From: Spirochaetota bacterium
Lineage (GTDB): Bacteria > Spirochaetota > UBA12135 > COTS27
Direction: 5' to 3'
NCBI GenBank assembly: GCA_013426755.1
Contig: AP019861.1
Location: 1,891,271-1,955,270 of the forward strand
Length of the DNA stretch: 64,000 bases
In this document: piece by piece, positions 12,571-20,704 of the stretch
Layout of the letters: each line of letters opens with the position of its first letter
Numbering within the stretch: position 1 is the stretch's first letter
Translations under genes and position numbers: made by a program
Notes under the pieces: model-generated
Told to the model about the DNA's origin: nothing
Database searches by the model: none
The model's input: only the letters and a program-made list of their open reading frames with translations

Positions 12571-13794
12571 ATGCCACAGAAAAAACCACTCACAAAAAAA
12601 ACGAACTCCTTCCTCTTCTCTATCCAATGGGTCATTGCTAACAACATCGTTAAGCAAGCCTTATATATACAAAAGTTCTCAGATCATTTTTTACGGTTAA
12701 CCGCCCCTAAAATAACCGTACTTGCAATTTTAATACTAATTTCAATAACCAGCTCGCTAACAGCCACCCCACAATTAACCCCGCTAACCGACCAGAAAAC
12801 GCAAAATATCACCTATCAAAAAGCAGACCAATATCTCAAAACTAGGAACTACAAAAAAGCCCTCGCTTTATACAGAATAGCCTACAAAAAACCCAATCTA
12901 ACAACCTATGAAAAAGTAGCTCTCCTATACCGATTGGGACTGTGCCACTTTTATCTCAAAGAATTCAATTCCACAGTCAAAGCCTATAAAAAGATTTTAG
13001 AATTTTATCCCAATTATCCAACAGCCAAACACAACATTGCCCTAGCCTATTATCACCAGAAAAAAGTTTCCAAAAGCATTGATATCTTACAAAATATTCT
13101 AGCCAGCCATCCTACATTCATTCATTCCTATAACAGTTTAGGCAATATTTATGAACTTCAGCAAAAACTAGACAATGCACTCATTTTATACCGAAAATCC
13201 CTAGAAATCAATCCCAATAATAGTGCCGTTTACGAACGCGTCGGCGCCATTTACAGACAAGCAGGCGAATACGATAAGGCTATCCTAGCATTCGAAGCAG
13301 CCCTCCAATACAACCCCAATTCAATAACCGCTCAGAAAAATCTCATTGAAATCGCTTACAATCTCGCTATTTTCCATGACAACCAAGGAGAATACAATCA
13401 AGCTATTGCTTACGTCAGAGAGATTACCCAAATTGACCCCCAATACACACCCGCCTACAACCTGCTCGGTATTATTTACAGTAAGAAAAAACTCAATTTA
13501 AAGGCACTTAGCTCCTTTAAAAAGGCCATCAGCCTAGACCCCTCTCTTCCACATGCTTATTATGGCTTGGGTATGCTTTATAAGAAAACGAAACGCCCTA
13601 AAAAAGCCATTGCTTACTTCGACAAAACTATCTCGCTAGACCCACAATTCATTCACGCCTATTACAATCTTGCAGAGATTTACTACAAAAATAAAGACTA
13701 CACCAAAACAAAAGACCTTTTTAAGAAAATTCTTAAAATTGACCCCAGTAGCTCCACAGCTTATGCCAGTCTCAAAAAGATAGAAAATTATTGA
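12571..13794 (+). CDS. Membrane-anchored TPR-repeat protein
   Basis: The 407-residue protein has one hydrophobic segment near residues 49-62 (ITVLAILILISITSSL), a signal anchor or signal peptide. About eight tetratricopeptide units of 34 residues follow, each with the usual A/G...Y...L.....P pattern (for example AVYERVGAIYRQAGEYDKAILAF). Such proteins act as scaffolds; a periplasmic or surface role is likely but the partner is unknown. Basic residues dominate before the hydrophobic segment. The gene stands alone, with duplicated leader sequence upstream and a 110-bp tandem array downstream. Confidence 0.85.
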   Translation: MPQKKPLTKKTNSFLFSIQWVIANNIVKQALYIQKFSDHFLRLTAPKITVLAILILISITSSLTATPQLTPLTDQKTQNITYQKADQYLKTRNYKKALALYRIAYKKPNLTTYEKVALLYRLGLCHFYLKEFNSTVKAYKKILEFYPNYPTAKHNIALAYYHQKKVSKSIDILQNILASHPTFIHSYNSLGNIYELQQKLDNALILYRKSLEINPNNSAVYERVGAIYRQAGEYDKAILAFEAALQYNPNSITAQKNLIEIAYNLAIFHDNQGEYNQAIAYVREITQIDPQYTPAYNLLGIIYSKKKLNLKALSSFKKAISLDPSLPHAYYGLGMLYKKTKRPKKAIAYFDKTISLDPQFIHAYYNLAEIYYKNKDYTKTKDLFKKILKIDPSSSTAYASLKKIENY

Positions 13795-15180: not shown

Positions 15181-16105
15181 CGTTAACTTGTTACTTAAAG
15201 ACTGCACTTAAAGATTGTTCTACTACTGCTAAAATATAGTTACTATCAATACAATTGAATTACAATTGAATTACAATTGAATTACAATTGAATTTTTAGA
15301 CAAAATTCACCTTTATTTCTCAATTCTAGCCTACTCTCAGAGATAATCATTTCATCCTAACAATCAACAGCCACATAAAACCGCCCATCAGATAATATCA
15401 TAACAACCTATTCATTCCGCTCAATCTACCTAATTTACTCAATCTATTTAATCTATTTAATCTATTTAATCCATTCAACTTACTCAACCTATTGACCGAG
15501 ATTTTCTGTCATCTTAAAAACAAGTAATATCAAGACTATTCTACAAAAATAATACCTTTCATCACAAAAAACTCCATCATACCCCATAAAACTCACATTA
15601 TACCTCATAAATAACTAGAACCGCCAGAAAACAACATCCATTTACATCACACTTAACCCCACACATCGACCGCCACAGACAATTCAAATACCCTTATTCA
15701 CCATATAAATGCTATTAATTTATTAATATTACGATTATTTATTGACTCTATCCTTAAATAAGGTTATAATTACTCAGTAACGTAATGCTAAATAACTCAT
15801 ATATCATATTTAACCCCTAAGAAAATGACACTAAGCCAAGTACATTGTAACGTTAAATATAGTGTAGCATTGAAGAGTTTTTAGATTAATAAGTACTGCA
15901 GCCGCATTATAGGTAGAAACTTGCATAAGACTTCAAATATAAAGCATTTCGCATATAAGGTATTTTGGACAATTACGCACAATTACGCCTTTAAAAGTAC
16001 AATAAATCCAGTAGCATCACATAAAATATCATCATAAAAAACAAGTATTGCCATTTTGTATTATTATTATTATTTACTACTATTGATTAAGTAAGAGGTA
16101 AAATT
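15181..16105. other. Long intergenic region and rpsB leader
   Basis: No gene is seen in about 920 bases. An 11-bp ACAATTGAATT repeat occurs four times at about 15250-15293, and a TTTAATCTA-type repeat recurs near 15425-15475. From the promoter at 15742-15770 a leader of about 330 bases would precede rpsB. I could not find a convincing riboswitch or S2-binding structure in it. Confidence 0.5.
15742..15770 (+). promoter_or_regulatory. Sigma-70-type promoter of the rpsB-tsf operon
   Basis: TTGACT (15742-15747), a 17-base spacer and TATAAT (15765-15770) form a strong match. The spacer holds CCTTA-AA-TAAGG, a small palindrome. It points at rpsB, whose start is about 335 bp further on. Confidence 0.7.
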
Positions 16106-18073
16106 TTGACCCAAGAAATCATTTCAATGAAGGAATTACTAGAAGCCGGTGTTTATTTCGGACATAAAGTCAGTAATTGGAACCCTAAGATGAAGAATTA
16201 TATCTTCATCAAACGGCGCGGTGTGCATATCATTAATTTGCAGAAAACCTTATTGCTATTCGAACAAGCATACAACCTAGTCAAAAACATCACCGCAAGC
16301 GGCGGAAAGATCCTCTTCGTAGGGACAAAAAAACAAGCCCAAAAATCTATTCGCGACCACGCCACCAGAGCTAATCAATATTATATCAACCACCACTGGG
16401 TAGGCGGACTTCTCACTAACTTTGCTGTTGTCAAACAATCTATCAATAAAATAGATAAATTTCGTAACATTTTAGCAGACGAACGCGCTAAAAAACGATA
16501 CCTTAAACGCGATCTCCTTAAAATTGAAAAATCTCTCAAAAAACTAGAAGAAGCTTTTATCGGTGTCAAAGAAATGAAAAAATTGCCAGACCTTTTGTTC
16601 GTCGTTGACTCGCATGTAGAAAGCAGAGCCATAAGTGAAGCCAATATCATGGGAATCCCTGTCTGTGCTATGGTCGACACAAATAGTGATCCTGATGGCA
16701 TTGACATTATTATTCCAAGTAATGACGACACTGTACGCGCAATTGATATCTTTGTATCACGGACTGCAGATGCTTCTTTGGATGGTAAAAAATTGTTAGA
16801 AGTTACGCGCGAAGAGACTCTTTTCGCTCAAGAAAAATCTTCCACAACCGACGATGCTTTACCAGCAGAAGAAAGTGACCCAGCCACTGCACAGCAAAAA
16901 AATATTGCTCCAGCAACAACATCTCCAAATCAAAAATTACGCCTGCGTGTAAAATCTAACTCAACAACACCAGCCCCTACTAATACCGCCACCCAGAAGC
17001 AAGCCACCCAAAATCGTACCGCCACATCACAAAAAAAATCAAAACCCATCGATTCCACACCTAAATCACCCTCCCAAAAAACTTCCACACCTCCTGCTCC
17101 TAACACACAAACCAAAGAACATCCAGCAAAACCACTCCCCCAATCATCCGATCGCAAAGCATCACAAAAAAATCCACCACCCCAAAAAACGCCTCCAAGC
17201 CAAACCACACCCCAACCTGCTAACGTCTCAGCACAACTCGTCAAAGAACTTCGTGACATAACGCAAGCAGGCATGATGGAATGTAAAGCAGCCCTCACCC
17301 AAGCAAAAGGCAATAAAGACGAAGCTATACGCATCCTCAAAGAAAAAGGCATGCTCCTCGCCGAGAAAAAAAACGCCAGTCGCGATGCCAATGAAGGAAT
17401 CATCTTCATCGCGCAATCCTCCACCCGTACCGTCGCCGTTCAATGCCTCTCTGAAACAGACTTTGTTGCCAAAAACGAAGACTTCAAAACATTCGTTAAA
17501 ACACTTGGAACAGAATTCCTTGCTAAAGGAAAAACTTTTCTAACCAGCAACGACGTCACCACTATGATAAGTGATATTGTCAGCAAGCTGCGTGAGAAAA
17601 TTGTCATTGGTGAGAATATTACCATAGAACATGCACCTAATACGATCACAGGATTTTATCTTCATGGCAATCATAAAATCGCCGCCCTCACCACAGCCAC
17701 TATTGACGAAAAAGACCTTTCTGCTCTAAATAAAGACGCTCTAACTTCTGTATTAAAAGATGTTTGTATGCAGATCGCTGCAATGAATCCCATTGCACTC
17801 TCGGTAGCTGACATTGATGATAAGACCAGGGAACAAGAACGTCAAATCTTTCTCAAACAACTCAAAACTTCTGACAAAAAACCCGAATTAGTAGATAAAA
17901 TTGTCGACGGAAAACTCAAAAAATACTTTTCTGAACGCTGCCTCTTGGAAATGAGTTTTGTCAAAGACCCCAAACTTTCTGTTAAAAAATACCTTACCAC
18001 ACAAGCAAAATCATGCGGACTCTCTGCTATCAATCTCACAGCTATGCACCGCCTTGAAATTGGAAAATCTTAA
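16106..18073 (+). CDS. rpsB-tsf: Fused ribosomal protein S2 / elongation factor Ts
   Basis: One 655-codon frame holds two normally separate proteins. Residues 1-230 are ribosomal protein S2 (MKELLEAGVYFGHKVSNWNP, FVGTKKQAQ, DLLFVVDSHVE, VDTNSDPDGIDIIIPSNDD). Residues about 232-375 are a Pro/Thr/Gln/Lys/Ser-rich linker. Residues 376-655 are EF-Ts, with its UBA-like start (LRDITQAGMMECKAALTQA) and the TDFVAKNEDF motif that contacts EF-Tu. Both domains have normal lengths and key motifs. It starts with TTG, supported by AGAGGT a few bases upstream. In relatives rpsB and tsf are adjacent genes in the same order, followed by frr, uppS and cdsA as here. It could work as a fusion or be cleaved in the linker. 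Confidence 0.95.
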   Translation: MTQEIISMKELLEAGVYFGHKVSNWNPKMKNYIFIKRRGVHIINLQKTLLLFEQAYNLVKNITASGGKILFVGTKKQAQKSIRDHATRANQYYINHHWVGGLLTNFAVVKQSINKIDKFRNILADERAKKRYLKRDLLKIEKSLKKLEEAFIGVKEMKKLPDLLFVVDSHVESRAISEANIMGIPVCAMVDTNSDPDGIDIIIPSNDDTVRAIDIFVSRTADASLDGKKLLEVTREETLFAQEKSSTTDDALPAEESDPATAQQKNIAPATTSPNQKLRLRVKSNSTTPAPTNTATQKQATQNRTATSQKKSKPIDSTPKSPSQKTSTPPAPNTQTKEHPAKPLPQSSDRKASQKNPPPQKTPPSQTTPQPANVSAQLVKELRDITQAGMMECKAALTQAKGNKDEAIRILKEKGMLLAEKKNASRDANEGIIFIAQSSTRTVAVQCLSETDFVAKNEDFKTFVKTLGTEFLAKGKTFLTSNDVTTMISDIVSKLREKIVIGENITIEHAPNTITGFYLHGNHKIAALTTATIDEKDLSALNKDALTSVLKDVCMQIAAMNPIALSVADIDDKTREQERQIFLKQLKTSDKKPELVDKIVDGKLKKYFSERCLLEMSFVKDPKLSVKKYLTTQAKSCGLSAINLTAMHRLEIGKS

Positions 18074-18147
18074 AACAATACAAGCACACCTATCAATTCT
18101 TTTATCATACCCATCATCACCGCACAACCGTTTCAATCCACATCACC

Positions 18148-18696
18148 ATGGACCCACAAGACCTTAAAAACAAAATGGATAAAATCATCGCTCACTTCCA
18201 AAGTGAGCTCGCAAGCATTCGGTCTGAACGTGCGCATCCTAGTTTGATTGAAAACATTGATATTAACGTATATGAACAAAGCATGAAATTAAAGAGCATT
18301 GCTTCTATCACCGTTAGCGATCAGCAAACCTTAACCGTCACCGCTTGGGATGCAGGCAATATCACGGCTATCGATAAAGGACTTCGCAATGCCAACCTCT
18401 CACTCAATCCGCGCATAGAAGGTTCTAAACTCCTCATCGTACTTCCTCCTATCACCAATGAACGCAGACAAGAATTTGTCAACCTCGTCAAACAAAAATC
18501 CGAACAAGCTAAAATTTCAATCAGAAATGCAAGACGAGATGCCAATGAATCACTCAAACTACAAAATAAAAATGGATCGTTAAGTGACGACGACCTGAAA
18601 GAACACCTTAAAAAAACTCAAAATTTAACCGACGAGTACTCTAACCTTATCACAGAGCGCCTAAAAAAGAAACAAACCAGTATAGAAAACCTCTAA
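18148..18696 (+). CDS. frr: Ribosome recycling factor
   Basis: Frr splits post-termination ribosomes together with EF-G. The 182-residue protein has the family features: the N-terminal helix (MDKIIAHFQSELASIRSERAHPSLIENI), the domain II region (ITVSDQQTLTVTAWD), and the C-terminal three-helix segment (RQEFVNLVKQ, RNARRDANESLK). Length is normal. It lies 74 bp after the S2/EF-Ts fusion in the conserved operon order. No Shine-Dalgarno sequence is obvious before the ATG. Confidence 0.95.
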   Translation: MDPQDLKNKMDKIIAHFQSELASIRSERAHPSLIENIDINVYEQSMKLKSIASITVSDQQTLTVTAWDAGNITAIDKGLRNANLSLNPRIEGSKLLIVLPPITNERRQEFVNLVKQKSEQAKISIRNARRDANESLKLQNKNGSLSDDDLKEHLKKTQNLTDEYSNLITERLKKKQTSIENL

Positions 18697-18893: not shown

Positions 18894-19664
18894 ATGAAAA
18901 TTCCCCATCATATTGCATTCATTCCCGACGGAAATGGTCGGTGGGCACAAGCACATCACCTTCCCATTGAAGTAGGGCACAGACGGGGCGTTGAAACATT
19001 AACCACCATTCTCGATCAATGCTATCATTTAGGCATAAAAGTTGTTACAGTTTATGCTTTCTCCAGTGAAAATTGGAGCAGATCTGAGCATGAAAAAAAT
19101 ATTCTTTTTGGTCTGATCAATTTCTTTCTCAAAACAAAACTTCCAAAACTCATCGACCAATCTGTCAAAGTAAAAATCATTGGCCAACAAGACAAATTTC
19201 CATCTTCTGTTAAAGAGAATATTCAAGTCGCTGAAACCGCTACACAGGCTTTTACAACCTATACATTACAGATCGCACTTGGTTATGGGGGTAGAGAAGA
19301 AATCATTCATGCAGCACAGAAATTTGCTGACGCAGTTGTCCGTGGTGAACAAAGCATATCAGCGCTAGACGAAACACACTTCCGTTCCTATCTGAGTACA
19401 AAAAATATAGCAGACCCTGATCTAGTCATTCGTACGAGCGGAGAATATCGAATCAGTAATTTCATGCTTTATCAATTGGCCTACAGTGAGTTTTACTTCA
19501 CGAGCACACTTTGGCCTGATTTCACACTAGAAACCTTAGATGCAGCATTAAAAGCATTTTCCACCCGCAATAGACGGTTCGGCAGTCGTCCGCTTACTTC
19601 AAACGACAACCCAACCACAGCACACAACCATATCATAAGTAATAGTAGTCATCGCTCATCATGA
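18894..19664 (+). CDS. uppS: Isoprenyl (undecaprenyl) diphosphate synthase
   Basis: UppS makes the C55 carrier lipid for cell-wall synthesis by cis-adding isopentenyl units. The catalytic Asp lies in FIPDGNGRWA (usual form FIMDGNGRWA). VGHRRGVE, TVYAFSSENWSR and the C-terminal IRTSGEYRISNFMLYQ and LWPDF motifs all fit the family. After about residue 235 there is a polar Asn/Ser/His tail. The last four bases overlap the cdsA start (ATGA), so the two are translationally coupled. Confidence 0.95.
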   Translation: MKIPHHIAFIPDGNGRWAQAHHLPIEVGHRRGVETLTTILDQCYHLGIKVVTVYAFSSENWSRSEHEKNILFGLINFFLKTKLPKLIDQSVKVKIIGQQDKFPSSVKENIQVAETATQAFTTYTLQIALGYGGREEIIHAAQKFADAVVRGEQSISALDETHFRSYLSTKNIADPDLVIRTSGEYRISNFMLYQLAYSEFYFTSTLWPDFTLETLDAALKAFSTRNRRFGSRPLTSNDNPTTAHNHIISNSSHRSS

Positions 19665-20704
19665 AGAAACGGATGCTTCCAACCTTTCTCGGTCTCGCTA
19701 TAGCAGCACTGTTTGTTTTCAATAAGAGTATTCTACTCAGCCACCTCATGTATATAGGTGCTGCGTATATACTCTACCGTGAATTACTTAAGCTCACACC
19801 TCAGCATAATAGCCCTAATACCACTTCCCACCCCCAAGCTAAATTTACAAAAAAGTTTCAATATAAATTACTTCTCCTAGGTGGAGTCACGCTCTCAGTT
19901 TATGCGTTTTTACACGCTCAGCTCCTCTATAAAACCACTCCCTTAGGTTCACAAGAATTAGCACTAATAAAATCCTTTGTCTTAATATCGCTTAGCCACT
20001 ACCAACTCACATCGGCAGTAATTCTCATCATCACGCTAGCACTATTTCTAGTCATAGGGTATCTCGTGGCAATCACTTCGCACAATCACAATAAAGCACC
20101 AGCACCAGAGCAAGCCTTAGAACCACCTGCTTTTCCTATGATTTTTAACACGTTCCTACGCAGTTTTCACGCACTAGTCTATAGCACCTTCTTTCTCTAC
20201 AGTATTGTAAAAATAAAGTACAGTTACCTCTTCACACCAACCTTAGAGTTAACCACAGCCCACAGCACAACACTGCTTATCATGATCTGGAGCATGGCGT
20301 GGACTTACGATAGCGCAGCTTACATTGGGGGGACTGTATGGGGGAGACGCAAATTAGGACTTTCCGTCTCGCCCAATAAAAGTTGGTCTGGACTCTGGCT
20401 TGGAATGAGCACTGTCATAGTATGTTTCTTAATCATTTATACGATAGGCAAAGACTCGTTTCTAGCAGAATTAAGAACGTTATGGTTTATCAAAACACCC
20501 TGGCAATTTATCGTCTTTACAGTCATTATTGCTGGAGCAGCTCAGTGCGGCGATTTGATAGCGTCTTTCTTTAAACGCGCAGCCCAAGTTAAAGATTCGG
20601 GACAACTGTTCGGACCGCACGGTGGCTTCCTAGACCGCAACGACAGCGCTATCTTTGCCTGCACCGTCTTTTACTATCTTCTAGTCGTTACTAAGAAATT
20701 ATAA
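19661..20704 (+). CDS. cdsA: Phosphatidate cytidylyltransferase CdsA
   Basis: CdsA makes CDP-diacylglycerol, the precursor of acidic phospholipids. The protein is a polytopic membrane enzyme. The C-terminal signature GDLIASFFKRAAQVKDSG followed by GPHGGFLDRNDS matches the CDS family (usual PGHGG.LDR.DS). Upstream, NKSWSG is also typical. Polar inserts occur in loops (about residues 48-63 and 147-160, rich in His, Asn, Pro, Ala), making it longer (347 residues) than usual. It overlaps uppS by four bases and ends three bases from the convergent ABC gene, so no room is left for a terminator. Confidence 0.92.
   Translation: MKKRMLPTFLGLAIAALFVFNKSILLSHLMYIGAAYILYRELLKLTPQHNSPNTTSHPQAKFTKKFQYKLLLLGGVTLSVYAFLHAQLLYKTTPLGSQELALIKSFVLISLSHYQLTSAVILIITLALFLVIGYLVAITSHNHNKAPAPEQALEPPAFPMIFNTFLRSFHALVYSTFFLYSIVKIKYSYLFTPTLELTTAHSTTLLIMIWSMAWTYDSAAYIGGTVWGRRKLGLSVSPNKSWSGLWLGMSTVIVCFLIIYTIGKDSFLAELRTLWFIKTPWQFIVFTVIIAGAAQCGDLIASFFKRAAQVKDSGQLFGPHGGFLDRNDSAIFACTVFYYLLVVTKKL

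Follow-up and report, generated by a model that had tools for sequence, protein, structure and literature searches.

Organization of the fused gene

On the forward strand of the window, by which the whole analysed stretch of 64,000 bp is meant, positions 16106 to 18073 are occupied by a single reading frame of 655 codons plus stop, which starts with TTG, ends with TAA, contains no internal stop and encodes a fusion of ribosomal protein S2, a linker and elongation factor Ts (EF-Ts) with a calculated mass of 72.6 kDa. A candidate Shine-Dalgarno-like motif (AAGAGG, 16093 to 16098, same strand), which might have arisen by chance, is situated seven bases upstream of the TTG. The two other forward frames contain many stops over the same positions, with two and six of them, respectively, in the linker.

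The first part of the frame (16106 to 16792, residues 1-229) constitutes the S2 domain, as indicated by Pfam (PF00318 at residues 11-227, E 4e-80), by the NCBIfam model for rpsB (TIGR01011 at 6-229, 285.7 bits against a cut-off of 76.3, profile positions 2-224 of 225), and by a structure model with its matches to S2 chains in the PDB. It passes into a linker (16793 to 17221, residues 230-372) that is rich in T, P, S, A, Q and K, carries a net positive charge and is predicted to be disordered at residues 250-371. The last part (17222 to 18070, residues 373-655) is the EF-Ts domain, recognized by the NCBIfam model for tsf (TIGR00116 at 373-653, 188 bits against a cut-off of 104, profile positions 3-273 of 293) and by Pfam (PF00889, EF_TS, at 444-653, E 1e-44). 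Its motifs QAGMMECK and ETDFVAKNEDF line up with EF-Ts of E. coli (1efu), and the EF-Tu-contacting motifs GMM (N-terminal domain) and TDFV are present. Both proteins are thus complete and the linker comprises about 143 residues, in agreement with a preceding sequence-only reading, which had described one polypeptide of 655 codons with complete S2 and EF-Ts and a linker of about 145 residues. None of the curated NCBIfam fusion models matched the product.

Codons 231 to 389 (16796 to 17272, forward strand), a run that includes the EF-Ts N-terminus, contain neither ATG nor GTG nor TTG in frame, such that EF-Ts lacks an ordinary start codon of its own. At the start-codon frequency of the other window genes, a run of this length has a chance of 0.0025, a value that is less remarkable in a linker poor in T and G. 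The codon choice of the linker fits that of the other window genes in the fusion frame only (+0.147 per codon, versus -0.05 in the other forward frames).

The genome consists of one contig of 2,684,921 bp. Whole-genome searches, by which separate copies of the genes were sought as the sequence-only reading had proposed, yielded one match to PF00318 and one to PF00889, both in the same open frame of 660 codons; a separate rpsB or tsf is absent from this single-contig genome of 2.68 Mb.

The fused gene is followed on the same strand by the genes for ribosome recycling factor (frr, 18148 to 18696, PF01765), undecaprenyl diphosphate synthase (uppS, 18894 to 19664, PF01255) and a CTP transferase (cdsA, 19661 to 20704, PF01148), and these Pfam matches confirm the gene order rpsB-tsf-frr-uppS-cdsA that had been read from the letters. 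Ten large genes near the fusion (frr, uppS, cdsA, gltX, pnp, secA and others) are of full length. Between tsf and frr (18074 to 18147), pyrH is missing, and likewise in genome G024 of the same family (locus L133), while in G027 and G013 it apparently follows tsf directly, judging from the translations. Upstream of the fusion, a TPR-repeat protein of 407 amino acids with a hydrophobic N-terminal stretch is encoded at 12571 to 13794.

Concerning initiation signals, a Shine-Dalgarno-like motif in the 20 bases upstream of the listed start (starts not curated) is found in three of the 22 window genes, whereas such a motif is usual for tsf of unfused relatives; the lineage of the window may initiate translation largely without Shine-Dalgarno sequences. 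The completeness score of the genome is 75.7% despite its single contig, and its S2 and EF-Ts branches are long. It may represent a fast-evolving, poorly sampled lineage, in which other odd translation genes may be found.

Structure model

In an AlphaFold2 model calculated from an input alignment of 15 rows, S2 reaches a pLDDT of about 87-97 over most of the domain, residues 250-371 of the linker have a pLDDT of about 30, and EF-Ts is folded with reasonable confidence. The modelled S2 part matches S2 chains in the PDB with a TM-score (normalized to the target) of up to 0.94-0.96, for instance 0.94 to 8buu_b and 9t4r_B.

Occurrence of the fusion

The suggestion that relatives be surveyed for the fusion was followed up in 393 sampled Spirochaetota genomes. 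All were searched with a profile built from fused proteins, and a large part was additionally screened with the S2 model of Pfam, which gives true stop-to-stop lengths; some genomes were not resolved individually, mostly in genera with checked siblings. The phylum follows from a plasmid contig of G075, another of its members, which is identical to a plasmid of Borrelia turicatae. S2 and EF-Ts share one frame in six of the 393 genomes, distributed over three families: the window genome (family f1), G001 and G066 (f4, genus g5), G045 (f4, genus g37), and G008 and G021 (f11, genus g12). The five genomes other than that of the window are separate assemblies with the same architecture. The fusion is absent in G011, which belongs to the order of the window, in G035, which belongs to its class (four genomes in the sampled set), and in G027, which belongs to the family of G001. 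In G024, the contig stops two bases before the EF-Ts frame, and the fusion in the lineage of the window thus rests on one genome; in G033, from the order of f11, the locus is cut by a contig end. Outside the phylum, 80 loci were retrieved, from Bacillota, Bacteroidota, Cyanobacteriota and further phyla; none of them is fused, and the ordinary two-gene layout of rpsB and tsf is present in these loci as well as in nearly all surveyed Spirochaetota.

Several apparent fusions were rejected. Because the open-frame lengths given by protein and alignment searches include in-frame stops, candidates were re-examined in stop-to-stop frames with Pfam, and all were unfused except G045, G008 and G021. A product of 609 amino acids in G196, read through a stop, really consists of 330 residues, a stop and 278 residues; in G013, a TAA separates S2 from the TTG start of EF-Ts; and in G036, the two genes overlap in different frames.

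A published S2-EF-Ts fusion was not found in the literature covered, from which subscription papers were mostly missing. The fusion and its recurrence are apparently new to the literature, although public protein databases may hold such entries.

Independent origins and formation of the fusion

A phylogeny of the core regions of S2 and EF-Ts, computed from 60 rows with the linker left out, requires three changes of state, all of them forced by well-supported branches. A single fused group occurs in none of 200 bootstrap trees, and one clade is rejected by the AU test, with p 2e-55 when all six genomes are grouped and p 1e-7 when f4 and f11 are. The branch of the window is long (0.82); its position next to G024 and G011 has support and matches the genome taxonomy. 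The fusion thus appears to have arisen independently at least three times in Spirochaetota. One ancestral fusion with subsequent loss would need many re-separations, the core tree alone being silent on gain versus loss. The linkers differ in composition: that of the window is basic and dominated by T, P, S, Q and K, those of f4 by K and E, and those of f11 are Ala-rich with Ser or Pro. Among the three linkers, no shared motif or composition was found, and disorder is common to all.

In unfused members of the phylum, the S2 tail following the core has a median length of 83 residues (range 46-161). S2 and EF-Ts adjoin throughout the relatives and frequently share a frame that is interrupted by one or a few stops, such that, given the long tail and the shared frame, a fusion requires no more than the removal of these stops. 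Family f4 exhibits an intermediate condition, in which the stop is lost and the ATG of EF-Ts is kept in frame, preceded by GGAGG in G001 (locus L135), by GGGGG in G066 (L136), and by a weaker motif in G045; the gene in f4 may possibly have a dual output, i.e., the fusion plus free EF-Ts. In f1 (the family of the window) and f11, the EF-Ts start is gone. The proposal that the fusion originated by loss of the stop between neighbouring genes fits the relatives: adjoining genes in the same frame and the intermediate in f4 speak for it, but stop loss alone is an incomplete account of the window fusion, because the start of EF-Ts was lost as well.

Between G001 and G066, the linker exhibits a dN of 0.085 and a dS of 0.64, with indels of whole codons only, which indicates that it is translated and constrained; between G008 and G021, dN is 0.43 and dS, which is near saturation, 1.5. 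As judged from these two-species comparisons, the linkers of f4 and f11 are kept in frame and are under purifying selection. Disordered S2 tails of considerable length are widespread in the phylum, and the conservation of the linker may partly reflect another role of the tail.

Comparison with known systems

EF-Ts is commonly regarded as a soluble, diffusing exchange factor. With the ordinary bacterial rpsB-tsf operon, the fused locus shares gene order and neighbours; it differs in that the genes of the ordinary operon are separated by a stop and the tsf start usually has a Shine-Dalgarno sequence.

The precedent named in the sequence-only reading, the chloroplast polyprotein of Chlamydomonas that joins PSRP-7 and EF-Ts (PETs), is real (PMC8343077) and is reported to be processed (PMC8343077, PMC12156993). 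In Arabidopsis, EMB2726 is a fusion of S1 domains and EF-Ts for which processing was not seen (PMC8343077), and no plastid EF-Ts other than EMB2726 in Arabidopsis and OsAL7 in rice has been reported for these plants (PMC8343077, PMC12156993). Like PETs, the window fusion is one chain, in which EF-Ts follows on the C-terminal side of a ribosomal protein of the small subunit. Despite this general similarity, there are clear differences: The partner is S2, whereas in PETs it is the S1-domain protein PSRP-7; PETs belong to the plastid lineage; and PETs contain two EF-Ts domains, whereas Pfam finds one EF_TS stretch in the window fusion. N-terminal S1 domains are not found in it, Ribosomal_S2 and EF_TS being the only Pfam matches. 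Judged by these defining features, the window fusion is not a PETs, and the comparison does not imply common ancestry of the PETs fusion with the bacterial ones. Engineered fusions of EF-Ts with EF-Tu and Q-beta replicase (PDB 3agp, 3mmp, 4r71) illustrate that the EF-Ts fold survives covalent fusion; they are laboratory constructs with EF-Tu as the partner, unlike the fusion with S2.

Fate of the fusion protein

The gene can be regarded, with near certainty, as a real fusion. The fusion is probably obligatory, the chain staying whole and providing a working EF-Ts tether on the 30S subunit at a ratio of 1:1. The only S2 and the only EF-Ts of the cell would be translated as one chain of 73 kDa, the S2 part of which would enter the 30S subunit in the usual manner, whereupon the disordered C-terminal extension of S2 (about 120-145 residues) would hold EF-Ts outside the subunit. 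Each small subunit would thereby carry one tethered exchange factor, which would recharge EF-Tu-GDP near the point of its release. Rough polymer scaling with our own parameters gives a root-mean-square reach of about 10 nm and a contour length of 50 nm for 140 disordered residues, and a similarly rough effective local concentration of the tethered EF-Ts near 0.5 mM. If the chain is whole and EF-Ts active while tethered, as we infer, the benefit would consist in a raised local concentration and a fixed 1:1 supply.

The main alternative, for which we see a considerably smaller chance, is a polyprotein, in which a protease would cut the linker and release a long-tailed S2 and a free EF-Ts. The linker is long, exposed and disordered in the model, the Chlamydomonas PETs provide a processed precedent (PMC8343077, PMC12156993), free EF-Ts would serve the large EF-Tu pool, and cleavage within a flexible linker would be invisible at the sequence level. 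However, the three independent linkers, alike in disorder and unlike in composition and motif, fit a tether rather than a shared cleavage site. Moreover, the in-frame ATG of EF-Ts in f4, with a strong Shine-Dalgarno sequence in two of the three genomes, suggests that free EF-Ts, if required, would be produced by initiation rather than by cleavage, but such a start is lacking in f1 and f11.

A mixed output, i.e., mainly fusion together with a little EF-Ts initiated internally at a codon other than the standard ones, is unlikely. The ATG at the EF-Ts N-terminus of f4, with its preceding G-rich motifs in G001 and G066, would favour it, and in the fusion frame of the window ATT 267, CTG 280, ATC 315 and ATA 385 are available; none of these four codons, however, has a clear Shine-Dalgarno sequence, the first true ATG is codon 390, from which initiation would yield an EF-Ts devoid of its first helix, and f11 likewise has no start at the EF-Ts N-terminus. 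Most improbable of all is a missed stop, frameshift or wrong join in sequencing or assembly, which the incomplete score of a genome that is the only one of its genus might suggest: even with an indel in the linker, EF-Ts would lack a start, which makes a single sequencing error an insufficient explanation and requires at least two, and the coding character of the linker in the fusion frame, the ten intact genes nearby and the five further assemblies with the same architecture likewise argue against it.

Returning to the tethered, uncleaved chain, there is about an even chance that at least three Spirochaetota lineages have in practice made EF-Ts a component of the small subunit, attached to it by a tether; EF-Tu would then be recharged at the ribosome rather than in the free pool. 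As a single-copy fusion that has apparently arisen repeatedly and has no ordinary EF-Ts start, the window gene constitutes a natural experiment on the recycling of EF-Tu at the ribosome, and equally on the question of whether one EF-Ts copy per ribosome suffices. In parallel to the plastid PSRP-7/EF-Ts protein, the joining of EF-Ts to a 30S protein has been reached repeatedly, in bacteria as well as in plastids.
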